A stretch of DNA of 40,441 bases from Bacteroidales bacterium (GTDB lineage: Bacteria > Bacteroidota > Bacteroidia > Bacteroidales > UBA932): NCBI GenBank assembly GCA_017558775.1, contig JAFYTP010000128.1, positions 1 through 40,441 on the forward strand, given 5' to 3'. Shown in pieces: positions 2,361 to 15,230 of the stretch; the first letter of the stretch is position 1, and every line of letters begins with the position of its first letter. The notes beneath the pieces were generated by a model. The model did no database searches and had not been told where the DNA came from. It worked only from the letters and a program-made list of their open reading frames with translations. A program made the translations under genes and the position numbers.

Positions 2361-2368
2361 CAAAATTA
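2361..2368 (-). promoter_or_regulatory. -7 box TAATTTTG of the left susC promoter
   Basis: On the minus strand this reads TAATTTTG, matching the Bacteroides consensus TAnnTTTG, 37 bases upstream of the start codon. The normal -33 TTTG is poor here. In its place lies the first unit of a three-fold GTGGA repeat, which suggests an activator-dependent promoter. Confidence 0.6.
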
Positions 2369-2389
2369 CCAATCTTCAAGGTCAGTGTT

Positions 2390-2452
2390 GTGGAGAAAAT
2401 CCTCTATATGGTGGAAATTTTACTAAAGTAGGTGGATTTTCCACCCGATATT
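2390..2452 (-). promoter_or_regulatory. Three 21-bp direct repeats (GTGGA units), likely operator of the left susC
   Basis: Read on the plus strand, GTGGA begins at 2390, 2411 and 2432, exactly 21 bp (two helical turns) apart. Each is followed by an A/T-rich run (GAAAAT, AATTTT, TTTTCC). The proximal unit begins 22 bases from the near edge of the -7 box, so it covers the -33 region. The same array with the same spacing lies upstream of the other susC (7621-7683). Tandem phased direct repeats next to the -33 region fit binding by an AraC-family activator. The obvious candidate is the product of 7639-10581; that link is inferred. Confidence 0.65.
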
Positions 2453-2460
2453 TTTTCCCC

Positions 2461-2494
2461 ATAAAAAGATGGCGTCCGCAGTGTTGCGGACGCC
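2461..2494 (-). terminator. Rho-independent terminator downstream of susD
   Basis: A perfect 10-bp stem (GGCGTCCGCA, 2471-2480, pairing with 2485-2494) with a GTGT loop. On the minus strand it is followed by ATCTTTTTAT. It lies 51 bases past the susD stop codon and separates the susC-susD unit from the left susC, which has its own promoter. Confidence 0.85.
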
Positions 2495-2545
2495 AACAAA
2501 ACAACCCTAATAATACCAACTTATATATGGAGAATCCAAGATGGT

Positions 2546-4348
2546 CTAGTACGGAAGGTCACCGTCGACGAAGAGGTAGTTATCCTGGTCTTCGAAGCCC
2601 TTGTTCTGCGTGAGCATGCCCTCCTGCAGGCCGATCTGCTCCTGCGGGATCATCCAGAAACCGCGGGTGAGCGCATAGCGCTGGGAGAAGGAACGGCCAG
2701 GCAGCTCCTGGTAGGTATTCGGCTTGCCCTTGTACTCGATATAGCCGCCGTCCTGGTTCTTCTGGATGATCTCACCGCACTTCTCGGGATACCAGCGGCG
2801 AAGATCGTTGAAACGCATGCCTTCGAACATGAGCTCATAGCGGCGCTCCTTCTGGAGACGCTCGAAAGTATAGCCGTCATACGGGGCCAGACCGGCACGG
2901 GCGCGGAGCCGGTTCATACCGTCCACGGTCTCCTTCAGTTCATCCAGCATCAGCAGCACGTCGGCGAAGCGGATATAGATCGCGTCGTTCTTGTTGCCGC
3001 TCTTCGGGTTGTTGGAGACAGCGCCGTTCATGGCATGGAAGAAGTTGTTCAGGATACTGGACTTGTTGCCGTCGGAATAGCAACCGACCGCCTGATACTT
3101 CTTGGAATAGAAGAGGGTTCTCTCGATCTCCTTGGAGTCATGTCCCTTGAACTTGGGAAGCTCCACGTAGCCGTCCTTGAACCAGTCATACACCTGGTTC
3201 GCATTGCGGATCGCGATGACGGAGCCATAGAAACGCTTGTCAGTCGGGCCGTAGTCGGGATCCGTGTACCACTCCTTGAGCATGATGGGATTGACGGAAG
3301 CATTACCGTTGGAGCCGGCGGCCCAAGGATAGCTGTCCGCATTCGGACGCTGGGAGGAGTTACGCATGCCGATCCATTCCGGGAGACGGTTGTAGCCGTT
3401 GCCGGTGAGCGAGAAATGGACGCCCCAGACGGTCTCCTTGCTGTGGTTGCCCACCCAGTGCAGGTTCTCGCGGTTGACGTAGGTGTCGAAGTTCGCACCA
3501 TAGATGACACCGCTGGAATACTCGTTGGTGTAAGGCCAGATTTCGCGCGGGTCGTCCTCCAGGTCGAACTTGGAGATGCTGGTGTTGGCGCACTCTTCCA
3601 GATAGGAGATCACCTGCGACTTGGAGATTCCGCCCATGTTGTCCTTCTTGTAGAAACCGGTGTAGAACAGCCAGACACGGCCGAGCAGCGCCTCAGCGGC
3701 ATACTTCGTGGCACGGCCGCAGAGGTTGTTGTCCCGGGAGTAACCGTATCTCGCCGGAATCATCTGGATGGCGGCGACGAGGTCGTCGGCGATGGCCTGG
3801 TAGATCTCATCGACAGAAGCCTTGGGCATATTCTCCACTTTGGTCTCCAGTGTCAGCGGGAAGGTCTCATAGCGCTCGGCGAGCTGCCAGAGATAGAAAG
3901 CCCTCATGAAGTGAGCCTGACCCAGATACCAGGTCTTGTTGTCACCCGTAAAGATATCGTCATCCATGGCGGAGATGGCCTCCATGGCGAAGTTGCAGCG
4001 GTACAGGCCGTTGTAGTAGCTCTTCCAAGGGGAGTTGTCCTCATCCATGGACGGGGCGAGCAGACGGTCCGCGGCCGTGGTCTCCTTGGAGCTCGTGGAG
4101 CCGCCGCCGTAATAGTCGTCACTGGCGATCATGCGCCGGAACAGGTTGATCCGGAAGATACTGCCGGTGTACAGGGAATGCATGGTGGAATATGCCGAGT
4201 TGACCAGCTGTTCTGCGTCCTTCTCGGTCCGGGGGAAAGAGGATGTATCCGCTTTCTGATAGTTCTTCGTATCCAGCAGGCTGTCGATCTTGTCACAGCT
4301 GACAATGGCCAGGATACCGGCAACGAGGATGAATATAATCTTTTTCAT
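2546..4348 (-). CDS. SusD/RagB-like nutrient-binding outer-membrane lipoprotein
   Basis: Surface lipoprotein that captures the substrate and closes over its SusC partner. The 600-residue length fits the family. The N-terminus MKKIIFILVAGILAIVSC is a lipoprotein signal with the lipid-anchored cysteine at position 18. An N-terminal SusD-like region (DTKNYQKADTSSFPRTEKDAEQLVN) precedes a TPR-type helical body (GQAHFMRAFYLWQLAERYE). The C-terminal part has the family's typical RLRARAGLAPYDG and ERRYELMFEGMRFNDLRRW motifs. It starts 12 bases after the stop of susC 4361-7540, so the two are co-transcribed and are partners. A terminator follows it. The ligand cannot be read from the sequence, and no glycoside hydrolase or peptidase gene follows within the window. 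Confidence 0.95.
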   Translation of the reverse strand: MKKIIFILVAGILAIVSCDKIDSLLDTKNYQKADTSSFPRTEKDAEQLVNSAYSTMHSLYTGSIFRINLFRRMIASDDYYGGGSTSSKETTAADRLLAPSMDEDNSPWKSYYNGLYRCNFAMEAISAMDDDIFTGDNKTWYLGQAHFMRAFYLWQLAERYETFPLTLETKVENMPKASVDEIYQAIADDLVAAIQMIPARYGYSRDNNLCGRATKYAAEALLGRVWLFYTGFYKKDNMGGISKSQVISYLEECANTSISKFDLEDDPREIWPYTNEYSSGVIYGANFDTYVNRENLHWVGNHSKETVWGVHFSLTGNGYNRLPEWIGMRNSSQRPNADSYPWAAGSNGNASVNPIMLKEWYTDPDYGPTDKRFYGSVIAIRNANQVYDWFKDGYVELPKFKGHDSKEIERTLFYSKKYQAVGCYSDGNKSSILNNFFHAMNGAVSNNPKSGNKNDAIYIRFADVLLMLDELKETVDGMNRLRARAGLAPYDGYTFERLQKERRYELMFEGMRFNDLRRWYPEKCGEIIQKNQDGGYIEYKGKPNTYQELPGRSFSQRYALTRGFWMIPQEQIGLQEGMLTQNKGFEDQDNYLFVDGDLPY

Positions 4349-4360
4349 GTGTTTTCGGAA

Positions 4361-7300
4361 TTAGAATTTGATGCTGATACCAGCCATATAGACCTTAGGA
4401 GAAGGATAGAAACCGGTATCAATGCCGGAAGACCAGCCGTAACCGGGGGCGCCGGTACCGACTTCCGGATCCATGCCGTCATATCCAGTGAAGGTGAAGA
4501 GGTTCTGTCCGGTCACGAAGAGACGGAATGTCTGGAACGGGATCTTCTTGAAGAGCTGCTTGAAGTCGTATCCGAAGGTGATGTTACGGATCTTGACGTA
4601 ATCGGCGTCCTGGATGAAGATATCGCTGTTATAGCTGTTGCACTTGAAGTTGTTGTGCGAACCGGAGGAGTAGCGCGGGAACTTGTTGGTGGAACCCTCG
4701 CCGGTCCAGTAGCGGGCGACCAGGTTGTTGGTGAAGCTCTGCAGATCCTGGAGGGCGAACTGGCGGTAGCTCTGCATGACCTGCTGGCCGAAGGCGCCGC
4801 TGCCATTGACACTGAAGTCGAAGCCCTTCCACTGCAGGCTGAGGCTGAAGCCCATGGTCACATCCGGATGAGGATTACCGATCTCGACGCAGTCCTGCTC
4901 GTCATACTTGTCGTCACCGTTCTGGTTGATCCAGATGACGTCACCCGGCTGTGCGTTCTCATAACCGTTCATGAAGAGATAGTTATTGGCGTGGTACTCG
5001 TCGATCTGGGCCTGGTTCTGGAAGATACCCTCGCTGGCGATACCCAGGAAGTAACCGATCGGCTTACCCGGCTCGGCGCGGAAACCGTCTTCCTTCGCCA
5101 CGTTCTCGGAGATGATCTTCTTCTCACCGTGGATCATACCATCGGCATTGTTGATATAGAGGACGGTGTTCTTGTTGTAGGAACCGTTGAGGCCGAGGCT
5201 GTAGCGGAGGTCGCCGATGTGGTCGTTCCAGGTGAAGCTGAGCTCGACACCGCTGTTACGCACGGCACCACCGTTGATGGAGGCGGCGCTGGCGCCCAGG
5301 ATACCCATGGAAGGAGGGGTGACCAGCCAGTCCTTGGTATCTTTCCGATACCAGTCGAAGATGACGCCCAGGCGGCTGCGGAAATAACGGGAATCGAAAC
5401 CGAGGGCCAGCTGCTCGGAAGTCTCCCAAGAAAGCTGGTCATTGGGAATCTTGTCGGGATAGGCGGCCGTGACCGGATTCGTCTGCTCATAGGAGAAGTC
5501 ATACTGACCGCTCAGGGAAATCGTGCCGGTATACTGGAAATTGTCGATGCGGCAGTTACCGTTCTGTCCCCAGCTTCCACGGATCTTGAAGAAGCTGAGC
5601 CAATCCTCGGCGAACTCCATCCAAGGCTCGGAAGAGATCACCCAACCGGCGGAAACAGACGGGAAAACACCCCAACGGTGACCCTTCGCAAAGTTGCAGG
5701 AACCGTCGGAACGGACGATGGCCGTCAGCAGGTACTTGTCCATGTAGCTGTAGTTCAAACGGCCGAAGAAGGAAACCAGGTTGTTGTAGGGGATCGTGTT
5801 GCCACCGCCCATGCTCGCGTGCTCGTCGCTCGTCAGGGCGCCTTCAACAGAACCGAGGTTGGCGGATTCCCAAGTACCGAACTTGGTGGAGGAACGGGTA
5901 CCATTGACACTCATGCCCCAGTCGGTCGCCTCGATGGAAGTACCGGCCAGTGCTTCGAAGGTATGGACCTTGGCCAGGGTCTTCCGGTAGTTGGCGGTCA
6001 GTTCCCAGGTCCAGTTGGTGGAAACGCTGGCGCTCTGGCTCACGCTGTCATAGTCCTTGAAATCGGAGGCCGTCAGCTGATACACCGGCGTATAGGAACG
6101 GGAGAAGTTGCTGTTGGCGCGGAAACCGAAGGCCGTGCGGAGCTTGAGCTCGCGGATGGGGTTCACCTCCAGGTAGACATTGCCCTGGACGCGGACGCCC
6201 TTGCCTTCGCTTTCTTTCATGTCATTCTGCTGCAGCAGGTTGACTTCGTTATCTCTGGCATCCCAGTGGTCGCGCACCTGCTTGTCATAGGTATAGATGG
6301 AACCATCCAGGTCGTAGGCGGGGAGGAGCGGGGTCTTGGTCAGGAGGTTGGAAACATCACTGCCACGGCCGCTGGTGCTCATGCCACGGGAACCCGTGAC
6401 GGAAACAATCACGTTCTCACCGAGCTTGATGACGTCGCGGTTGCCCTTCTTCAGGACGGTGAAATCCGTATTGGCACGGACGGTGGTACGGTCATAGTAG
6501 GTAGGCTTGGGCATACCCAGGGTACCTTCGGAATAGGACTTGGTGAAGCTGAAGGAATAACGGACGCCGTCGTTGCCGCCGGTCACGCCCAGCACCATAT
6601 TATTATTAGGCGCGTTCTTGTTGATGCTCTCGAGGAACCAGTCCGTACCGTTCCACTTGCCTTCCCGGATCCACTGCATCTGGACGGGCATCGTTTCCTC
6701 GATATTGTCGTATTCATGCAATCCGGCCTGGGCGACCAGGTCCAGATACTCCTGAGCGGTGACGCCATGGACACCGTTGGTGTTAGGCTGCTGGAAACCC
6801 GTGTACGCGTCAAAGGTGACGGTCGCTTTCTTTTCGCCGATCTTACCCTGGCGGGTGGTCACAAGGACAACGCCGTTCGCCGCGCGGGCACCGTAGATGG
6901 CCGCGGAGGCTGCATCCTTGAGGATGTCGATGGATTCGATGTCGGCGGGGTTCAGGACATCCAGGTTGCCGCCGGCCACACCGTCGATGACGATGAGCGG
7001 TCCGGCGGAACCGGTGGTACCGATACCGCGGACGGTGATGTTGTAACCGGCACCCGGCACACCGCTCTCCTGGACGATGTTCACGCCCGGAACGGAGCTG
7101 TAAAGGGCACCCAGCGCATTGGTCGTGCTCTGCTTCTGGATATCGTCACCGGAAATGTTGATCGTGGCACCCGTCAGGAGTTTCTTCTTCTGGGTACCGT
7201 AACCGACGACGACGGTCTCCTCGAGGAATTCCGTGTCCTCCTCAAACACAACGTTGATGGACGTACGTCCGTCCACCGCGACCGTCTGGGTCGCGTAACC

Positions 7301-7540
7301 GACGCAGGAGAAAATGAGGGAGGACTTGGAAGGAACGGTGATTGTGTACGTTCCATCCACATCAGTAAGCGCTCCGACGGTCTGGTTGCCGTCAAGCATG
7401 ACTGTTGCTCCGAGGACAGGCTCGCCACGCGAATCTGTCACTTTTCCCTTCACCGTGACATTCTGGGCGAACGCGGTCGCAGCAGAAAGGGTCACCATCA
7501 CTGAAAGAAAAAGACAGCGAAAAGTGTTGAAAACTTTCAT
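4361..7540 (-). CDS. SusC/RagA-like TonB-dependent outer-membrane receptor
   Basis: TonB-dependent importer paired with the downstream SusD lipoprotein. It is complete at 1059 residues. A signal peptide ends near residue 25 (ATAFAQ). A carboxypeptidase-regulatory domain follows at about 27-105 (VTVKGKVTDSRGEPVLGA), then the SusC signature FLEETVVVGYGTQKKK, a plug domain (VPGVNIVQESG, YNITVRGIGTTGS, DAASAAIYGARAANG) and a long beta-barrel ending in ...MAGISIKF with a C-terminal phenylalanine, as outer-membrane barrels require. The first ~50 residues and the 5' DNA resemble the left susC closely. Transcription starts from the repeat-controlled promoter at 7592-7683, divergent from the AraC-type regulator gene. 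The substrate is unknown. Confidence 0.97.
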   Translation of the reverse strand: MKVFNTFRCLFLSVMVTLSAATAFAQNVTVKGKVTDSRGEPVLGATVMLDGNQTVGALTDVDGTYTITVPSKSSLIFSCVGYATQTVAVDGRTSINVVFEEDTEFLEETVVVGYGTQKKKLLTGATINISGDDIQKQSTTNALGALYSSVPGVNIVQESGVPGAGYNITVRGIGTTGSAGPLIVIDGVAGGNLDVLNPADIESIDILKDAASAAIYGARAANGVVLVTTRQGKIGEKKATVTFDAYTGFQQPNTNGVHGVTAQEYLDLVAQAGLHEYDNIEETMPVQMQWIREGKWNGTDWFLESINKNAPNNNMVLGVTGGNDGVRYSFSFTKSYSEGTLGMPKPTYYDRTTVRANTDFTVLKKGNRDVIKLGENVIVSVTGSRGMSTSGRGSDVSNLLTKTPLLPAYDLDGSIYTYDKQVRDHWDARDNEVNLLQQNDMKESEGKGVRVQGNVYLEVNPIRELKLRTAFGFRANSNFSRSYTPVYQLTASDFKDYDSVSQSASVSTNWTWELTANYRKTLAKVHTFEALAGTSIEATDWGMSVNGTRSSTKFGTWESANLGSVEGALTSDEHASMGGGNTIPYNNLVSFFGRLNYSYMDKYLLTAIVRSDGSCNFAKGHRWGVFPSVSAGWVISSEPWMEFAEDWLSFFKIRGSWGQNGNCRIDNFQYTGTISLSGQYDFSYEQTNPVTAAYPDKIPNDQLSWETSEQLALGFDSRYFRSRLGVIFDWYRKDTKDWLVTPPSMGILGASAASINGGAVRNSGVELSFTWNDHIGDLRYSLGLNGSYNKNTVLYINNADGMIHGEKKIISENVAKEDGFRAEPGKPIGYFLGIASEGIFQNQAQIDEYHANNYLFMNGYENAQPGDVIWINQNGDDKYDEQDCVEIGNPHPDVTMGFSLSLQWKGFDFSVNGSGAFGQQVMQSYRQFALQDLQSFTNNLVARYWTGEGSTNKFPRYSSGSHNNFKCNSYNSDIFIQDADYVKIRNITFGYDFKQLFKKIPFQTFRLFVTGQNLFTFTGYDGMDPEVGTGAPGYGWSSGIDTGFYPSPKVYMAGISIKF

Positions 7541-7591
7541 AAAGATTTAAGATTATTAGAAGTGCTGAATAGTTTATGTTGCTAGTTTTCG

Positions 7592-7599
7592 CAAAAATA
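7592..7599 (-). promoter_or_regulatory. -7 box TATTTTTG of the susC-susD promoter
   Basis: The minus strand reads TATTTTTG (TAnnTTTG consensus), 51 bases upstream of the susC start. It aligns with the -7 box of the left susC promoter, and the flanking AATCTT is also conserved at the same offset. There is no good -33 TTTG. The first operator repeat begins 22 bases upstream, as in the sister promoter. Confidence 0.6.
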
Positions 7600-7620
7600 T
7601 TAATCTTTGCATATTGTATT

Positions 7621-7683
7621 GTGGACAAAATATAGGATATGGTGGACAAATCATTAAAGAAGGTGGATTTTCTGCTGGCGATT
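7621..7683 (-). promoter_or_regulatory. Three 21-bp direct repeats (GTGGA units), likely operator of susC-susD
   Basis: On the plus strand GTGGA begins at 7621, 7642 and 7663, again 21 bp apart, with GACAAA or GATTTT following. The distance to the -7 box matches the array at 2390-2452. The second and third units lie inside the first 15 codons of the divergent regulator gene (ATG at 7639). Bound protein could therefore also block or tune transcription of the regulator itself. The binding protein is inferred, not shown. Confidence 0.65.
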
Positions 7684-10581
7684 TTTCTCTGCTTGTTATT
7701 AGCCCCCCAAAAGCTTCATGCTCAGGCGGATGCAGAGGACTATCTGGTGATTAACAGGCTGTCCCGGGAGAACGGTCTTCCGGACCAGGACGTCAACGGT
7801 CTGTACTTCGACAGCAAGGGATACGCCTGGATCAGCACCTTCGGAGGCGGCCTGGTCCGCTACGACGGCGATTCTTTCATCCGATTTTCGCAAAAGACGG
7901 ATCCGTTGTTCATCAGCGACTTTGTCGACCAGTGCTGCGAGGACGGCTTCGGAAGACTGTGGATCCCCTGCGCGGGCGGCATGAACATCCTGGACCTGAA
8001 GACGCTGACCTTGATCGATGAATTCCCCGGTCTGTCCAGCACCAAGCGCCATTCGCTCCTGTCCCCCGGATCCGTGAGCCGAGATACCAAAGGATGCATG
8101 TGGTTCACCTCCAATGACTATCTGTTCCGGGTAGCCTTTGCCGACGACGGCAACAAGGTCATTATCGACTCCCTGCAATGCAAAGTCTCGAACTCCAACC
8201 TGATGTCCAAGGTCTGTGATGTCGATAATGACGGCTCCGCGTGGATTGCCATCAACGGACGCTTCTTCAAGGTCCGGCATATCGAGGGCCGCGGACTGTG
8301 CATGTCCGAAATCCTGCCCGGCATCGATATCGGCGAAGACAATAAGGCAACCGCCTATCTGCGCTCCGGAAATGAAGTGTGGATCGGCACCCTGAAGGGT
8401 TTGTACCAGGTGAACATCGCCTCCGGCAATTATGTCTGCCATCTGCACTCCGAATCGGACAGCCACACCCTCCCGAACGACGAAATCACCAGCCTGTGCT
8501 TCTCTCCGGAAGGTGAGGCGGTGGTCGGCACCCTGGGCGGCGTCAGCATCTACAATTCAACCTATCATTCCTTCGACACCTACGGATCCCGTCCCAATGC
8601 TTACGGGAATACGCTTCTCCCGGGAGACATGGTGCGGTGCGTCGTCACCAGGGATCGGCAGATCTGGGTGGGACTGGAAGCGGAAGGACTCTCCATCATC
8701 CAACGGAAGCCCCTCCAGATCATCAATCTGTCCCAAATAGAGAGCACGACCACCCCTATCCCCTCCACGCCCGTCAGGGCCATGTTCATCGACAGCAAGG
8801 ATATCCTCTGGCTGGCGACGACCGAATACGGTTTGTGCCGGCAGGTCGGGAATCTGGTGTTCAAGAACTACAACTCGAACAACTCCGCGCTCGAGGACAA
8901 TTCGATCACGGCGTTCTGCGAGGACAAGCACGGCAGAATCTGGTTCGGCTCCGTGAACGGGCACCTGAATTATGTCAATCAGTCCGGCCCCGACGTCATT
9001 CACATCCCGGAAGGGAGCAAGTCGGAAATGGCCAAGAGTATCGATGTCATCCTGGGAATCCTCTATGACAGCATCAACGACTATATCTGGATTTCAGCCC
9101 GCAGCGGACTGTTCATCTATGACCTGGGCAATGCTTCCTTCTCCCGGTATCCCGGGAAGACAACCTCCTGCATCGGCGCGTGCATCGCGGCGGACAAACT
9201 GTGGGTGAGCAGCATCGAAGGCCTCAGCATCATCGACCTGAAAACCCTGGAGTCCCGGATGCTCACGGAGTTCCCTTACTGCATGGCGATGGTTCCCGAC
9301 GGCGACAACACCATCTGGGCGGGCACTTACGGAAGAGGCGTTCTCCGGATGGAAAACTGCCAGTCGGAGAATCCGGACATCACGGTCTATTCGGAGAACG
9401 ACGGGCTGGTGGACAATCAGGTCCACGGCCTGCTGCTGGACGGTATCTATCTGTGGATCACGACGGAAAACGGCCTCTCCCGCCTGGACACGCAGGTCGG
9501 CGAGATCACCAGCTACGGCCTGAAGGACGGACTTAAGTCGATGGCGTTCTGCGAGAGCAGTACCGCGAAAGGAAGCGACGGAACCGTCTATTTCGGACAG
9601 AAGGAAGGCCTCAGCATCCTCCGCTCCAGCTATGTCCAGAACGAATACGGAAACACGCCCAACGTCGTCATCTCCGGCTACTGGTCCAAGGATCTGTTCC
9701 ACAGTCTATCGCACGCCGACATCATCCACAAGGACGAAAAAGACATCGATTTCACCCTGAAATTCTCAGACCTGTCCTTCGGCAAGAACCCGGACATCCT
9801 CTACGAGAGCAGGATCCTGCCGATGGAAAAGGAATGGTCCCCCATCTTCGAGAATGACACCCACGTCAAGTTCGGCCAGATTCCGGGCGGTAAATACCGG
9901 ATCCAGATCCGCGCCGTGGACAAGAAAGGAAACGTCCTGTCCCAGGACGAAAAGACGTTGGAGGTCCAGCCCGTCCTTTATAAAAGGTGGTGGTTCCGGC
10001 TGATTGCCCTGCTGCTCTTCCTCCTGGTCGCCTACCTGTTCGGGCTGTGGTATACCGCATCCGTCAACCGGCAGCGGAATCTTTTGAAGAAGGAAGTAGA
10101 CCGGCAGACCAAGATCCTGAACGACCAAAAAAGAGAGCTGGAGAAGAAAGCGGAGGAACTCTCGGAGCAGAATGCGCTGCTGCAAAAGCAGAACGAGATG
10201 ATCGCCAGCCACAACACACTGTTATCCAGCACTTTAGCAAACAAGGATTCCGACTTCTCCTCCAAGCTGCTGGAGGCCATCCAGAAGAAGTATAAGGATC
10301 CGGATCTCGACGTCCAAGCGCTGGCCGATGCGATGGGCATGAGCCGCAGCATGCTGAACGACAAGATCCAGAAGGCGCTGGGGCAGTCCATCGCGCAGTT
10401 CATCCGGACCTACCGGCTGAACGTCGCGAAGGAAATGATCTGCAACGGCACCAACAAGGACATGAACATCTCCGAAATCGCCTACGAGGTCGGCTTCAAC
10501 GACCCGAAGTATTTCACGAGATGCTTCACCAAGGAATTCAACGCCACCCCTTCCGACTTGTTCAAGGAAAGCGCTGAATAA
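7639..10581 (+). CDS. Membrane-spanning one-component regulator: periplasmic propeller sensor fused to AraC-type DNA-binding domain
   Basis: Likely senses the locus substrate in the periplasm and activates both susC promoters. The 980 residues comprise a signal peptide (about 1-28), a long series of Reg_prop propeller repeats (for example GLPDQDVNGLYFDSKGYAWIST, DNSITAFCEDKHGRIWFG), a Y_Y_Y domain (about 700-775, ending GGKYRIQIRAVDKKGN), one transmembrane helix (about 785-807, WWFRLIALLLFLLVAYLFG), a charged coiled coil (about 810-860), and a C-terminal AraC helix-turn-helix pair (DVQALADAMGMSRSML, NISEIAYEVGFNDPKYFTRCF). The histidine-kinase and receiver domains of classic hybrid two-component proteins are absent, so signalling is probably through dimer geometry, as in SusR-like regulators. 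The start at 7639 is needed for the signal peptide, although the operator repeats overlap it. Confidence 0.9.
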   Translation: MVDKSLKKVDFLLAIFLCLLLAPQKLHAQADAEDYLVINRLSRENGLPDQDVNGLYFDSKGYAWISTFGGGLVRYDGDSFIRFSQKTDPLFISDFVDQCCEDGFGRLWIPCAGGMNILDLKTLTLIDEFPGLSSTKRHSLLSPGSVSRDTKGCMWFTSNDYLFRVAFADDGNKVIIDSLQCKVSNSNLMSKVCDVDNDGSAWIAINGRFFKVRHIEGRGLCMSEILPGIDIGEDNKATAYLRSGNEVWIGTLKGLYQVNIASGNYVCHLHSESDSHTLPNDEITSLCFSPEGEAVVGTLGGVSIYNSTYHSFDTYGSRPNAYGNTLLPGDMVRCVVTRDRQIWVGLEAEGLSIIQRKPLQIINLSQIESTTTPIPSTPVRAMFIDSKDILWLATTEYGLCRQVGNLVFKNYNSNNSALEDNSITAFCEDKHGRIWFGSVNGHLNYVNQSGPDVIHIPEGSKSEMAKSIDVILGILYDSINDYIWISARSGLFIYDLGNASFSRYPGKTTSCIGACIAADKLWVSSIEGLSIIDLKTLESRMLTEFPYCMAMVPDGDNTIWAGTYGRGVLRMENCQSENPDITVYSENDGLVDNQVHGLLLDGIYLWITTENGLSRLDTQVGEITSYGLKDGLKSMAFCESSTAKGSDGTVYFGQKEGLSILRSSYVQNEYGNTPNVVISGYWSKDLFHSLSHADIIHKDEKDIDFTLKFSDLSFGKNPDILYESRILPMEKEWSPIFENDTHVKFGQIPGGKYRIQIRAVDKKGNVLSQDEKTLEVQPVLYKRWWFRLIALLLFLLVAYLFGLWYTASVNRQRNLLKKEVDRQTKILNDQKRELEKKAEELSEQNALLQKQNEMIASHNTLLSSTLANKDSDFSSKLLEAIQKKYKDPDLDVQALADAMGMSRSMLNDKIQKALGQSIAQFIRTYRLNVAKEMICNGTNKDMNISEIAYEVGFNDPKYFTRCFTKEFNATPSDLFKESAE

Positions 10582-10587
10582 GACGGC

Positions 10588-11748
10588 CTACAGGCTGGCG
10601 ATCAGAATCTTCTTGATATCCTCCTCGTTCAGAGGAACATAGGCATTCTCCAAGCCCTCGTTCACAGCGATATGGTGCGCCATCTCGTCGATGCGGCTGT
10701 CGTCGATACCGACCTCGCGCAGATGCATCGGAATGTCGATGCTCTCGAAGAACTTGTAGGTCTCGTCGATGGCCTTGCGGGCAATCTCCCATGGATCGGA
10801 CGCATCGATGCCGAACACATTGAGACCATATTTCACGAAACGGTGCAGCGTGCGCTCGCTCAGGATGTGCGTCATCCAGCGCGGAGTGATGATGGCGAGT
10901 CCCCAGCCGTGGGTGATGTCGTAGTACGCGCTCAGGGCGTGCTCGATGCCGTGGCAGGGCCAGCCGGAAGGGCTGTTGCCCAGAGAAAGGATGCCGTTGC
11001 AGCCGTAGGTGCAGGCGAGCATCATCTCCGCGCGGGCGGTGTAGTCCTCGGGGTTTTCCAGGCACTTGCGTCCATTGACCATCAGGCTGCGCAGCATGCT
11101 CTCGCAGAAGCCGTCGTTGAGGAGCGTCGTGTCCTCAGCGAAGTACTGCTCCATGGTGTGGTTCATCGCATCGGCGATACCCGCGGCCGTCTGGCCCTTG
11201 CTCACCGTGAAGGTGTAGGTCGGATCCAAGATGGAGGCGACCGGATACAGCAGCGGATCGCCATAGCCGATCTTGTCGTTGGTCTCCGTGCGGGAGATGA
11301 CGCCAAAGGTGTCATATTCGCTGCCGGTGGCCGCGAGAGTGAGGATGTCCACGACGGGCAGCGCCGCCTTCGCTTTCACCTTATAGGAGATCAGATCCCA
11401 CGGATCGCCGTCGTAGCAGGCGCCCGCGGCGATGGCCTTGGAGCAGTCCAGCACGCTGCCGCCGCCCACGGCCAGGATTACGTCCACCTTGTTTTCCTTG
11501 CACAGGCGCACGCCGTCCAGCACGCTGGGATCGTACTTCGGATTGGGCTGGATGCCGCTGAGTTCCACAATATCATAGCCCTTCAGCAGCTCATGGACCT
11601 TCTGGTAAAGACCGATTTTCTTGATGCTTCCGCCGCCGTAGGTGAGGAGGATCTTCTTGCCGAACTGCGCCATTACACTGGGCAGTTTCTCGATGGCGCC
11701 CTTTCCGAAGATTAGGCGCGTCGGGGTCATATAATCAAAGTTCTGCAT
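10588..11748 (-). CDS. Iron-containing alcohol dehydrogenase (YqhD/BdhA type)
   Basis: Cytoplasmic NAD(P)H-dependent reduction of aldehydes to alcohols. It is 386 residues long from the ATG at 11746-11748 (MQNFDYMTPTRLIFGKGAIE), almost exactly the length of YqhD. The frame stays open further upstream, but that extension is low-complexity antisense of the neighbouring gene. The nucleotide-binding motifs YGGGS (37-41) and GGGSVLDCSKA (95-105) are present. The expected metal ligands D193, H197, H266 and H280 are all found (DAMNHTMEQY, CHGIEH, DITHGWG). It is convergent with the regulator gene (6-bp gap) and divergent from the lipoprotein gene at 11851. The physiological substrate is unknown; detoxification of short aldehydes or fermentation is plausible. 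Confidence 0.93.
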   Translation of the reverse strand: MQNFDYMTPTRLIFGKGAIEKLPSVMAQFGKKILLTYGGGSIKKIGLYQKVHELLKGYDIVELSGIQPNPKYDPSVLDGVRLCKENKVDVILAVGGGSVLDCSKAIAAGACYDGDPWDLISYKVKAKAALPVVDILTLAATGSEYDTFGVISRTETNDKIGYGDPLLYPVASILDPTYTFTVSKGQTAAGIADAMNHTMEQYFAEDTTLLNDGFCESMLRSLMVNGRKCLENPEDYTARAEMMLACTYGCNGILSLGNSPSGWPCHGIEHALSAYYDITHGWGLAIITPRWMTHILSERTLHRFVKYGLNVFGIDASDPWEIARKAIDETYKFFESIDIPMHLREVGIDDSRIDEMAHHIAVNEGLENAYVPLNEEDIKKILIASL

Positions 11749-11817
11749 ATTGGATTGGTTATTTCTGCGGGTTAAGCAACAACTGCTGCAAGATACGAAA
11801 AATCCTAATATTTTGCG

Positions 11818-11825
11818 TACCTTTG
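11818..11825 (+). promoter_or_regulatory. -7 box TACCTTTG of the DUF2807 lipoprotein gene
   Basis: Matches TAnnTTTG, 25 bases before the ATG at 11851. The -33 element is not clear. The divergent alcohol dehydrogenase promoter must lie in the same 102-bp gap, where only a poor match (TATCTTGC on the minus strand, 11788-11795) is seen. Confidence 0.55.
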
Positions 11826-11850
11826 AATTCGGAATATAAAACGTAACGAA

Positions 11851-12660
11851 ATGAAGCCCCTTTCCATCCTCTCGCTTTGCCTGGCCGCCGGACTGTTGGC
11901 CGTATCCTGTATCATCATCGGCAACGGCGCCTCCATTGTCGGCCACTGCACCGAAGACGGCATCGACTATACGGAAGTCCGCGACGTCAAACCTTTCCGC
12001 GGGCTGGTGAACAGCCTCCCCTGCAACGTATATTATGAGCGGGCCGACCTGCAGGAAGTCCGCGTGGAAACCACCGAGAAGTTCGCCGACAAAGTCCTGA
12101 CCGAGGTCGAGGACGGAACGCTGTTTCTCAAGCTGAAGGAAGGCTCCTATCCCGAACTGATCCTCCGCATCGTCATCACCACCCCCGACATCGAAAGCAT
12201 CAAGGTCTCCGGTAGCGGCAACCTTATCAATAAAGGCGGCCTTTATTCCGGCAAAGACCTGAACCTGAAGATCTCCGGCAGCGGCGACATCCGCACGGGC
12301 AATATCGACTGCAAGGACTTCACCGCCCATTGCAGCGGCAGCGGCAACCTGAACCTCGACAAGATCGCCTGCACCGGCTTCTCCGGCACGGTCACCGGCA
12401 GCGGCAACATCTCCGCCCAGCTCGTCCTGGTCGATGGCGACGCCTCGGTCCGGGTTTCCGGCAGCGGCCGCGTCCGCCTCGAGGAGGTCGATGTCGACGG
12501 TGACATGGACCTCAGGACCAGCGGATCCGGCGACATCATCGTCAACGGCACCTGCCACGCCGTCACCGCCCATTCCTCCGGCTCCGGCAACATCTCCGGC
12601 AACCTTTCCAACACCGGCGTCAACGCCCGCACCACCGGTTCCGGCCGCGTGCGGCTGTAA
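11851..12660 (+). CDS. Lipoprotein with DUF2807-type beta-solenoid (GIN-domain-like)
   Basis: Predicted lipoprotein of 269 residues: MKPLSILSLCLAAGLLAVSC has a lipobox with cysteine 20. The body contains eight regularly spaced [ST]GSG motifs (GSGNLI, GSGDIR, GSGNLN, GSGNIS, GSGRVR, GSGDII, GSGNIS, GSGRVR) 19-22 residues apart. Each is one turn of a right-handed beta-helix, and the protein ends right after the eighth. This matches the DUF2807 putative auto-transporter adhesin head domain common in Bacteroidota. The N-terminal part contains FRGLVNSLPCNVYYERADLQEVRVE, typical of the family's first strands. The function is unknown; surface adhesion is only a family-level guess. It is monocistronic, with its own promoter and a downstream terminator. 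Confidence 0.85.
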   Translation: MKPLSILSLCLAAGLLAVSCIIIGNGASIVGHCTEDGIDYTEVRDVKPFRGLVNSLPCNVYYERADLQEVRVETTEKFADKVLTEVEDGTLFLKLKEGSYPELILRIVITTPDIESIKVSGSGNLINKGGLYSGKDLNLKISGSGDIRTGNIDCKDFTAHCSGSGNLNLDKIACTGFSGTVTGSGNISAQLVLVDGDASVRVSGSGRVRLEEVDVDGDMDLRTSGSGDIIVNGTCHAVTAHSSGSGNISGNLSNTGVNARTTGSGRVRL

Positions 12661-12737: not shown

Positions 12738-15230
12738 TTATTTTCCTTTGCGGACTTCGAATTCAACCGGTTCCCGCATCGGCCTGCCTTCTCTCAAGAG
12801 GCTGCGGTCCTGCAACTTGGCGGCCTTGGCCTTCCGGGCTTTGGGAGCGGCGCTGGCGGTGGCGACGATGGGGGCACCTTGGGAGATGGCCACGTCGTCC
12901 AGGTTCAGCCAGAACATATCCGTGCAGTTGAAGTGGCGGAAGCCGATGTACACGGCCTTGCCGTTATACTTGGAAGGAATCGGGATGATATAACGCTGGA
13001 GATATCCGTCAGCGGAAACGGCGGCAGGTTCTCCGGCGGGATACTCCTGTTCCGCAAGCAGTACCTCGCAAGCGTCCAAGTTATCCGCGGTGGGAGCGGC
13101 GTCCGTGATATAAACGGCATAATGCTCATAAGGCCAGCTCGGATCCTGCGCTCCGACCCAGAAACTCAGATAGTTATTGGAGGTGAGCGTCACGGCCGGT
13201 GTGAAGGCCCAGTTGTCAGGAGTAAGAGGACCTTCACTGTTGTCATACGACGCGCTTGACAGGACACACTCGCCGGAATAAGTATGGTGTCCCGTAAATT
13301 TACTCCAATCGTGACCATCTTCATCGGCATCGATGAATGTCCAGGCGCTGATGTCTCCTTCGAAATCTTCCGTATAGATATAAGTGGTTTCATCCGGGAC
13401 ATAAGGAATCCACGCGGCGGGGATGGCGTCGTAGTCATAGCTTACGCGGCTCTCTTCCTCATACGTGATGAACATGTAATATTTGTAGCCATTTGCCGCA
13501 TTGATATTCAATCGGTTTTCAGCCTCGTCATACTCGGCTTTGAAGATGACGCGCAGCGTTCCGTCCGGATAATTCGGGAAATAGCCGTCGCTGCCTTGCA
13601 GGCAGATGCTGGTGGTGCCGTTGGAATACACTTCCTGTTCGTAGACGACCATACGGCCATTTTCAAACACAGCCTCGACAGGGTTTTCTCCCTGGCCCTT
13701 CAGGCCGCTGATCGAATAGCTGACGCCATTGACTTTCTCTTCGACGACATAGGGGGTGGGGCCGGTAGCCCATTCGCCCAGATAATCCTCGTATTGGGCA
13801 TCGATGCCGGTTTCGGGCTTGCCTTCCGTAATCTCGACATCGTCCAGATTCAGCCAATACTGGTCGTAGCAGTTGAAATGACGGAAGCCGATGAACGCCG
13901 TTTTGCCCTCGAATTCTTCCGGAATCTGTACGACATAACGCTGATAAACACCATCTTCACCCAAATCGACATAGTTGCCGGCAGGGAATTCGGTTTCCGG
14001 AACCAAGGTGACAAAATTGGAGCCCAGGGGAGAGTCTTCCACGATATATACGGCATAATGCTCGTAAGGATAATTAGTATCCACGGCCCTGACCCAGAAA
14101 CTCAGATAGTTGTCGGTCGTGAGTTTCACCGGAGGCGTGAATGCCAAGTTATCCGGCTGGATCGCACCGTAATTATTGATGAAGGACTGGCTGGACAGGG
14201 CATAGGAGCCGGAATTCGGCATCACGGCCTGCGTCTGCCAATTAAGTCCGTCTCCATCCAGGTCGAGGAACGTCCAATCCGTGGCTCCCGTTTCAAAATC
14301 CTCGAGATAAGGCACCGAGACAGGAGCGACGATGGAGCTGGAAAGGTTCACACTGAATTTGGTAAGACCGCCATCGACAAACTTCATCGTAGGACAGGAG
14401 CTGATCTCCTTCTTATAGACGTTCTTGTCGGTGATGACCTCGAAGGCGAGCTGGTCACCCTCCTCGCCCCAATTGCGCTCGGAAAGCACGCGGAACCAGA
14501 CCACGTCGTCGCCGGTAGCCTCCAGATCATCCACCGTGAGGGTGATGGTATTGGAAGCAAGATACGCGAACGCGCTCTTGGAGTCCACAGTGCTGGTCAC
14601 GGGATCGTAAGTGATAGTGCCGGCCACATACGCAGGGGCCACCATCTTGACCTGACGGATCTTTTCACCGGATTTGATGCCCTTGAGCGTCAGACGGACG
14701 ACGGTGCCCAGGCGGCGGAAAGCGAACTCGACATCCTCTCCGTCGGAGACGCGGGTGTCACCCTTATCTACGATCGCGGAGAACAAGATGTCGGAATTCG
14801 AGGAAAGATTGTTGCCTTCCAGAGCCTGGTTTGCCGGCATATAGAGCAGGAAGGCATCATTGTACGTATAAACGGCAGACTGGGGATACACAGCCGAATA
14901 CTGATAGGAAGCGCCTTCTGCCTCCCACTCCAGGGTGGTGCTGAAACCGGCCTTCCCGCCATTGAGGTTGGCAGCGGCGGAAGTGGCTTTACCCGCGACG
15001 GCTCCGTCCACCGATTCAAAGAGGACCACCGCATCGCCTTCCGACCACTTGATTACAGGAACATCGCCGTCTTCGACATAGGTTTTGGTGTTTTCGTCGG
15101 CGGCAAGGACATTAATCGTGACGCCTTTTCCGTTGGCGGTCGCTTTCGTGAGATCGTTTTCTTTTGCGCAGGACGCCAGCGCGGCGGCGACGCCGGCCAG
15201 GCTGAGAAGAGTGATAAAAGAATGTTTCAT
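12738..15230 (-). CDS. Large surface lipoprotein: fimbrillin-like N-terminus plus two choice-of-anchor-J / cleaved-adhesin-like domains
   Basis: Predicted exported lipoprotein of 830 residues (MKHSFITLLSLAGVAAALASC, lipid cysteine 21). Residues about 30-290 resemble the fimbrillin-like domain (ENTKTYVEDGDVPVIKWSEGDAVVLF). Two homologous jelly-roll modules follow, at about 307-468 (EDFETGATDWTFLDLDGDGLNW ... HFNCYDQYWLNLDDVEI) and 622-783 (EDFEGDISAWTFIDADEDGHDW ... HFNCTDMFWLNLDDVAI). Such domains often bind carbohydrate or host surfaces. A separate beta-rich stretch lies between them. The last ~45 residues are unusual: Ala/Lys-rich then Arg-rich (KARKAKAAK, REGRPMREPVEFEVRKGK), with no obvious type-IX sorting domain. 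It lies 12 bases downstream of a 50-residue small protein gene. The ligand is unknown. Confidence 0.85.
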   Translation of the reverse strand: MKHSFITLLSLAGVAAALASCAKENDLTKATANGKGVTINVLAADENTKTYVEDGDVPVIKWSEGDAVVLFESVDGAVAGKATSAAANLNGGKAGFSTTLEWEAEGASYQYSAVYPQSAVYTYNDAFLLYMPANQALEGNNLSSNSDILFSAIVDKGDTRVSDGEDVEFAFRRLGTVVRLTLKGIKSGEKIRQVKMVAPAYVAGTITYDPVTSTVDSKSAFAYLASNTITLTVDDLEATGDDVVWFRVLSERNWGEEGDQLAFEVITDKNVYKKEISSCPTMKFVDGGLTKFSVNLSSSIVAPVSVPYLEDFETGATDWTFLDLDGDGLNWQTQAVMPNSGSYALSSQSFINNYGAIQPDNLAFTPPVKLTTDNYLSFWVRAVDTNYPYEHYAVYIVEDSPLGSNFVTLVPETEFPAGNYVDLGEDGVYQRYVVQIPEEFEGKTAFIGFRHFNCYDQYWLNLDDVEITEGKPETGIDAQYEDYLGEWATGPTPYVVEEKVNGVSYSISGLKGQGENPVEAVFENGRMVVYEQEVYSNGTTSICLQGSDGYFPNYPDGTLRVIFKAEYDEAENRLNINAANGYKYYMFITYEEESRVSYDYDAIPAAWIPYVPDETTYIYTEDFEGDISAWTFIDADEDGHDWSKFTGHHTYSGECVLSSASYDNSEGPLTPDNWAFTPAVTLTSNNYLSFWVGAQDPSWPYEHYAVYITDAAPTADNLDACEVLLAEQEYPAGEPAAVSADGYLQRYIIPIPSKYNGKAVYIGFRHFNCTDMFWLNLDDVAISQGAPIVATASAAPKARKAKAAKLQDRSLLREGRPMREPVEFEVRKGK

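Follow-up and report, generated by a model that had tools for sequence, protein, structure and literature searches.

Two susC promoters in a 40,441-nucleotide stretch of Bacteroidales DNA (contig JAFYTP010000128.1 of assembly GCA_017558775.1; hereafter the window) each carry a row of three GTGGA units. We propose that the units of each array serve as a row of AraC-type half-sites for the product of the gene at 7639-10581, a regulator that most likely activates both susC operons from them.

Two susC promoters share an array of GTGGA units

Both susC genes are transcribed from the minus strand. A domain search identified their products as TonB-dependent receptors: susC2 (4361-7540) precedes susD2 (2546-4348, minus strand; SusD_RagB family), and susC1 (2-2323) is truncated by the contig end. 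The array of the susC2 promoter, S2 (7621-7667, plus strand), has units starting at 7621, 7642 and 7663 and lies between two divergent transcription units, susC2-susD2 on the minus strand and the regulator gene on the plus strand. The other array, S1 (2390-2436, plus strand), has units at 2390, 2411 and 2432 and is the candidate operator of the susC1 promoter; it is an orphan copy, with no regulator gene behind it. The unit step is 21 bp in both.

Each array faces a -7 box on the minus strand, TAATTTTG at 2361-2368 for susC1 (CAAAATTA on the plus strand) and TATTTTTG at 7592-7599 for susC2 (CAAAAATA on the plus strand). Read in the direction of susC, both boxes are TAnnTTTG, the form that the -7 element usually takes in promoters of Bacteroidota. 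Exactly 21 bases separate the box from the first unit at S1 and S2 alike; the array starts at the -33 position and steps away from the promoter along one face of the DNA. With the regulator ATG at 7639, units 2 and 3 of S2 coincide with codons 2-3 and 9-10 of the regulator.

The unit starts and 21-bp steps given in an initial annotation of this DNA, and the TAnnTTTG boxes that it named, are all correct in the sequence, and the AATCTT at an identical offset and the similar inner flanks that it listed (TTACTAAAGTAG and TCATTAAAGAAG) are both present. Its description of the arrays as identical holds for the 15 unit bases but not for the remaining 32 array positions, of which 20 agree. It overlooked that units 2 and 3 of S2 fall within the regulator open reading frame, that the regulator has no kinase, and that the arrays are homologous copies. 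The promoters and first susC codons of S1 and S2 also appear homologous, and the two arrays look like copies rather than the products of two independent events. Conservation at other loci is therefore the better evidence.

Within the assembly (2.63 Mb, 128 contigs, 87.7% complete), three exact GTGGA triples at 21-bp steps were found, S1, S2 and one on contig C111, versus 0.007 expected from base composition over both strands; the reversed pattern gave none. The C111 triple was set aside, its letters being GC-rich and the match being absent from the scan that required a box. This latter scan, proposed as a check in the initial annotation, returned S1 and S2 and no third array in the whole assembly with up to three mismatches (reversed control, 0). 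A box followed by two units, with at most one mismatch, again yielded S1 and S2 only (reversed control, 1). Elsewhere, reversed patterns gave 2 matches in 11 genomes and 2 in the listed rows of a scan of 398 family genomes. All genome scans demand the 21-bp register, so that out-of-register arrays, such as that of locus L136 described below, are missed and escape the array counts. Five matches with three mismatches (L035, L039, L040, L041 and L042) were rejected because they had no susC or regulator start, one of them (L042) overlapping the end of a distant regulator.

We also scored 29 of 52 susC promoters of the PF13715 set of this genome for repeats (30 loci were taken, one of them without a usable frame). 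No lag was prominent: a score of 11/14 was reached at a lag of 21 in 3 of the 29 and at a lag of 15 likewise in 3, with wrong frames picked for several loci (e.g., L061, L083, L086 and L087).

The array accompanies the regulator at related loci

Fourteen related loci, titled Bacteroidales or Bacteroidia and several of them from the rumen, were found through the regulator protein sequence (64 to 76% identity). The initial annotation would have been contradicted by arrays missing beside orthologous regulators; at all 14 loci, an array stands beside a divergent susC and starts 18 bases before the regulator ATG, in keeping with its choice of the adjoining AraC protein as the candidate factor. Seven arrays are exact, five have one mismatch, and two (L009 and L012) have two, both in unit 1. 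The scan of these loci reported only arrays with zero mismatches or with the box at 29 bases, so weaker arrays there would not show. Over 15 rows (the window and the 14 loci), conservation is 96% in the unit columns and 70% in the other array columns, the ATG excluded. Unit 1, which lies outside the regulator gene, is exact in 12 of the 15 rows.

No TTG occurs 18 to 22 bases from the susC box in any of 16 promoters (15 regulator-susC promoters and S1). Thus, the normal -33 element is missing, which fits the weak -33 posited in the initial annotation.

An array scan of 398 family genomes, allowing two mismatches, gave a match in 15 genomes, many of them repetitive or unrelated, and led to two further regulators next to susC. 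As these were found via the array itself, they illustrate the pattern without testing it. The L118 regulator is 68% identical over the part available, and its array is exact. The L115 regulator is 49% identical; its units read GTGTA, GTGGA and GTGGA, and its box has one mismatch. Its ATG lies 9 bases ahead of unit 2 instead of 3, while the array-to-box distance is kept. From the same scan, L113, L114 and L121 were rejected for want of a susC or regulator match, and L122 to L130 as repetitive, judging by their letters; L116, L117 and L120 have the letters and coordinates of L019, L011 and L010 and were counted once. At L010, the susC1-type gene (5856-8892) is broken into two frames near 8015 by either a frameshift or an assembly error.

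Six distant kinase-free homologs (31 to 35% identity) were also found by protein sequence. Five of them (L104 to L107 and L109) have the box, 21 bases, GTGGA and, 21 bp further, GTnnA; the array overlaps or adjoins their own start, with the start codon placed elsewhere. In L104 to L107, a perfect TAnnTTTG in the direction of the regulator lies 2 bp from the divergent box. L104 and L109, the two whose neighbors were scanned, face an alpha-L-arabinofuranosidase gene instead of susC and are themselves followed by a GH43 gene, and L109 has a GH127 gene in addition. Together with the GH43 and esterase genes of the L010 locus, these neighbors point to arabinose- or xylose-containing glycans, and the inducer is probably an oligosaccharide that contains one of these sugars.

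The regulator combines a propeller sensor with an AraC-type output domain

The regulator (980 amino acids, plus strand) contains a Reg_prop propeller (E value, 2.7e-25), a weak Y_Y_Y match (23.6 bits, below the cutoff of 26.6) and, at residues 895 to 976, an AraC-type helix-turn-helix (HTH) domain (HTH_18; E value, 8.6e-20). The domain search found neither a histidine kinase nor a CheY-like receiver domain in it at an E value of 0.001, and the stretch from Y_Y_Y to the HTH spans only about 118 residues. A signal peptide, one apparent membrane helix and a coiled-coil-like stretch were read from the sequence alone. Relatives of solved structure are the hybrid two-component system (HTCS) sensors 4a2l (E value, 1.2e-36) and 3v9f and the HTCS protein 12aw; for the DNA-binding domain, which has the two HTH motifs typical of the AraC/XylS family, the solved relative is AraC (2k9s). 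The regulator is thus predicted to be a one-component, membrane-spanning protein without phosphorelay.

The second HTH (ISEIAYEVGFNDPKYF) hardly varies across an alignment of 15 close and 3 distant regulators, and the DNA-binding domains of the 14 relatives are 76 to 94% identical to that of the window regulator.

One regulator appears to serve two operons

At nine of the 14 related loci, the regulator faces a susC1-type gene (A-type); at five, as well as at L118, it faces a susC2-type gene (B-type). Three genomes hold both types, each with its own regulator. The window genome has one regulator of this clade among the 23 candidates, all of which were scored, the next best being 27% identical over part of its length. 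In an unrooted tree, a branch with 100/100 support places it on the side of the A regulators, yet the gene that it faces is the B-type susC2; the orphan array belongs to the A-type susC1.

Arrays outnumber clade regulators 2:1 in the window genome and in two relatives, G206 and G218 (98% complete), in line with the initial proposal of one regulator for two susC units. The ratio is 2:2 in G202, G203 and G207 and 1:1 in G199, G200, G201, G204, G205, G208 and G209. No susC more than 50% identical to susC1 was found in G206. In G218 (L135, G218:C2:310000-322000, and L136), the regulator has a susC1-type operon on one side and a susC2-type operon on the other, a layout unlike that of the window with the same two partners. 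Our reading is that a duplicated regulator would have been lost while its operator was kept and taken over; it is plausible, from the similarity of their DNA-binding domains, that the A and B regulators share their DNA specificity with the window regulator.

Orphan arrays keep their units without a regulator gene

Three orphan arrays, S1, L034 and L136, retain their units with no regulator gene behind them, which argues that the units are DNA signals. In S1, the box and the units are perfect although the old regulator frame (2408-2431, plus strand), translated as MVEILLK, stops at codon 8. The regulator -7-like element has changed as well: at 2371-2378 (plus strand), S1 reads AATCTTCA, versus AATCTTTG at 7602-7609 (plus strand), where the putative regulator -7 element lies 2 bp from the susC2 box and CTTTG is retained in 14 of 16 rows. 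L136, in G218, was reached by following the gene rather than the array; it is a susC2-type promoter with three exact GTGGA units, and here too the old regulator frame has a stop at codon 8. The third orphan, L034 in G206, matches the array at 13 of 15 unit bases and precedes a GH43 gene 91% identical to that of the L010 operon. On both sides, the flanks of L034 can be aligned to the divergent L014 promoter with a score of 64, whereas 100 shuffles reached 19 at best.

A proposed model for activation and autorepression

We infer that the regulator acts on the arrays as a multimer and as an activator. The arrays, their geometry and conservation, the orphan copies with their units, the protein domains and the pairing of one regulator with two arrays are seen in the sequences, whereas binding, activation, ligand and autorepression are parts of the model. 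An oligosaccharide would bind the periplasmic propeller, and the signal would cross the single membrane helix to the AraC-type domain. The cytoplasmic domains of the ligand-bound regulator would then lie side by side on one DNA face at intervals of two helical turns. The half-site closest to the promoter would occupy the -33 position, and RNA polymerase would be recruited to the TAnnTTTG box. Occupancy of S2 would start transcription of susC2-susD2, and that of the orphan S1 would start susC1-susD1-GH43. As just 2 bp lie between the divergent -7 elements, and as the array extends over the 5′ end of the regulator gene, occupancy should also hold the regulator down, by blocking both its promoter and elongation, and so cap its level. 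We give such autorepression an even chance.

Weighing the evidence

Several observations weigh against this proposal, or against its strictest form. The 14 loci are related to one another and include near-copies (L010 and L019). The box distance, equal in 10 of them, is one base longer in L015 to L018. In S1, the units are better preserved than the other positions relative to S2 (15/15 unit bases versus 20/32 others; Fisher P = 0.004, or 0.007 against the best match of S1), but the P value is flattered, since S1 was noticed through its exact units. In L034, set against its nearest relative L014, the units have no significant advantage over the other positions (13/15 versus 23/32; P = 0.23). 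The three-unit phasing put forward in the initial annotation is found at all 14 loci, but L009 (GGAGA) and L012 (GCAGA), both still facing susC, have a badly preserved unit 1, unit 3 is missing in the five distant homologs with an array, and in L136 it lies at 23 bp. A need for exactly three units is thus doubtful. The sixth distant homolog, L108, has no array.

A further observation bears on which protein binds. At L134 in G303 (8199-8274), a near-array (GTGGA, GTGGA, GGGGA) with a CAAAAGTA box stands at a susC-type gene, and no homolog of the window regulator was found within 17.5 kb of it; it may be a chance match, or the gene may be under an AraC-type protein that is unlinked or different. 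The arrays in general might then bind another factor, such as a different protein of the AraC or HTCS type or a system with an alternative sigma factor, and the window genome does encode other propeller or AraC-type proteins. We nevertheless consider this unlikely, because the array is present at all 14 loci that were found by the regulator protein and because five of six distant homologs share its core and spacing, including the two that face an arabinofuranosidase gene instead of susC.

If the adjoining regulator does bind, it could repress susC without ligand and be released by it. A protein bound at the first unit, at the -33 position, could block the polymerase, and PMC3404733 reports one HTCS bound to loci whose expression falls while it is active. 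However, HTCS regulators are described in a review (PMC10766802) as predominantly activating, and the absence of TTG from all 16 promoters suits activation; repression is accordingly an improbable mode of action.

S1 might also be a decaying relic of the duplicated promoter, with susC1 no longer under control of the regulator. In S1, the start of the old regulator gene and its -7-like element have both changed, as a relic would predict, but the parts that susC1 itself needs, the box and three units, are intact. Moreover, a terminator-like hairpin of 11 pairs (2470-2495, minus strand; -23.3 kcal/mol, z = -4.15) separates the susC1 promoter from susD2, so that susC1 probably needs a promoter of its own. 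At its start, contig C95 carries the 3′ part of susC1, with an overlap of 46 residues at 100% identity, and behind it susD1 and a GH43 gene; all three frames are open. We therefore think it quite unlikely that S1 is a relic.

Lastly, units 2 and 3 could be mere conserved N-terminal codons (MVD...VDF), with unit 1 arising by chance and S1 alike as a recent copy. In favor of this, the two units keep the reading frame in all 15 rows, S1 appears homologous to S2, and L034 keeps its units not significantly better than its surroundings. On the side of a DNA signal, codons 9 to 11 are GTG GAT TTT in all 15 rows, whereas past codon 15 the same codons make up shares of 0.32, 0.21 and 0.12 of their kind. 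As gene starts are often AT-rich, this invariance alone is weak. The codon explanation is very improbable given the units of S1, unchanged despite a stop at codon 8 while the rest drifted, the three GTGGA of L136 with its stop and shifted frame, the box distance held by L115 and the five distant homologs with a different start, and unit 1, largely exact outside the gene.

Relation to known regulators

In Escherichia coli, AraC occupies direct-repeat half-sites two turns apart at araI1-araI2, beside a promoter, and its own gene is divergent and self-repressing. AraC is soluble, cytoplasmic and loops to a distant site, whereas the window regulator is predicted to be membrane-bound. The two-turn AraC-type layout suggested by the initial annotation matches a published HTCS pattern: PMC3878776 describes HTCS operators as direct repeats of two sites at an average distance of 21 bp, read as a dimer bound two turns apart, and intact membrane-spanning HTCS proteins are reported to bind DNA in cells (PMC3404733). 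With HTCS as described in PMC3878776, the present system shares a periplasmic propeller sensor, an AraC-type output, a proposed control of susC-susD and direct repeats about 21 bp apart; it differs from them in the lack of histidine kinase and receiver, in three units rather than two and in an array that covers the start codons of its own regulator gene. SusR-like one-component regulators, in the account of the same source, are likewise membrane-spanning sensors that activate sus operons without phosphorelay, but the DNA-binding domain of SusR resembles no other known family and its repeats lie 67 or 77 bp apart, in contrast to HTH_18 and 21 bp here. Lacking the kinase and receiver that define HTCS, the regulator falls outside that group, and its operator spacing and DNA-binding domain set it apart from SusR-like proteins. 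By analogy, it would work like the output half of an HTCS.

New here are the third unit, the kinase-free regulator, the overlap of the array with the regulator start codons, and orphan arrays with decayed regulator starts. In the open-license literature, judged by titles, we found none describing a propeller-AraC regulator that lacks a kinase, nor a set of three AraC half-sites. These systems may form a distinct Bacteroidales class of membrane-bound one-component AraC activators, in effect HTCS minus the phosphorelay. Such a class would have a fixed operator of two or three GTGGA units over its own start that activates the divergent operon and caps the regulator, and the array of a lost paralog would be taken over by the survivor. 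We see the arguments for and against this class as evenly balanced.

HTCS-type operators are known mainly from comparative prediction. The presence of one 5-base core, in a fixed geometry, at all 14 related loci and in orphans free of coding constraint makes this operator unusually well defined without experiment. If the proposal is true, the decayed regulator starts inside orphan operators record how such regulons fuse, by a route that brings one sensor to run two uptake operons. The kinase-free regulator would also offer a short test system for transmembrane signaling by propeller sensors.

Other features of the window

Two genes adjoin the regulator. The first (10588-12573) encodes an iron-containing alcohol dehydrogenase-like protein with a long N terminus that has no assignment, and the second (12738-15230) a protein with two Cleaved_Adhesin matches; neither had a match at 16 related loci, within the flanks covered. 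Unit 3 of S1 is part of a perfect hairpin, GGTGGATTTTCCACC (2431-2445), followed by a T-rich tail. This structure is terminator-like on the plus strand and may halt antisense transcription heading for susD2.

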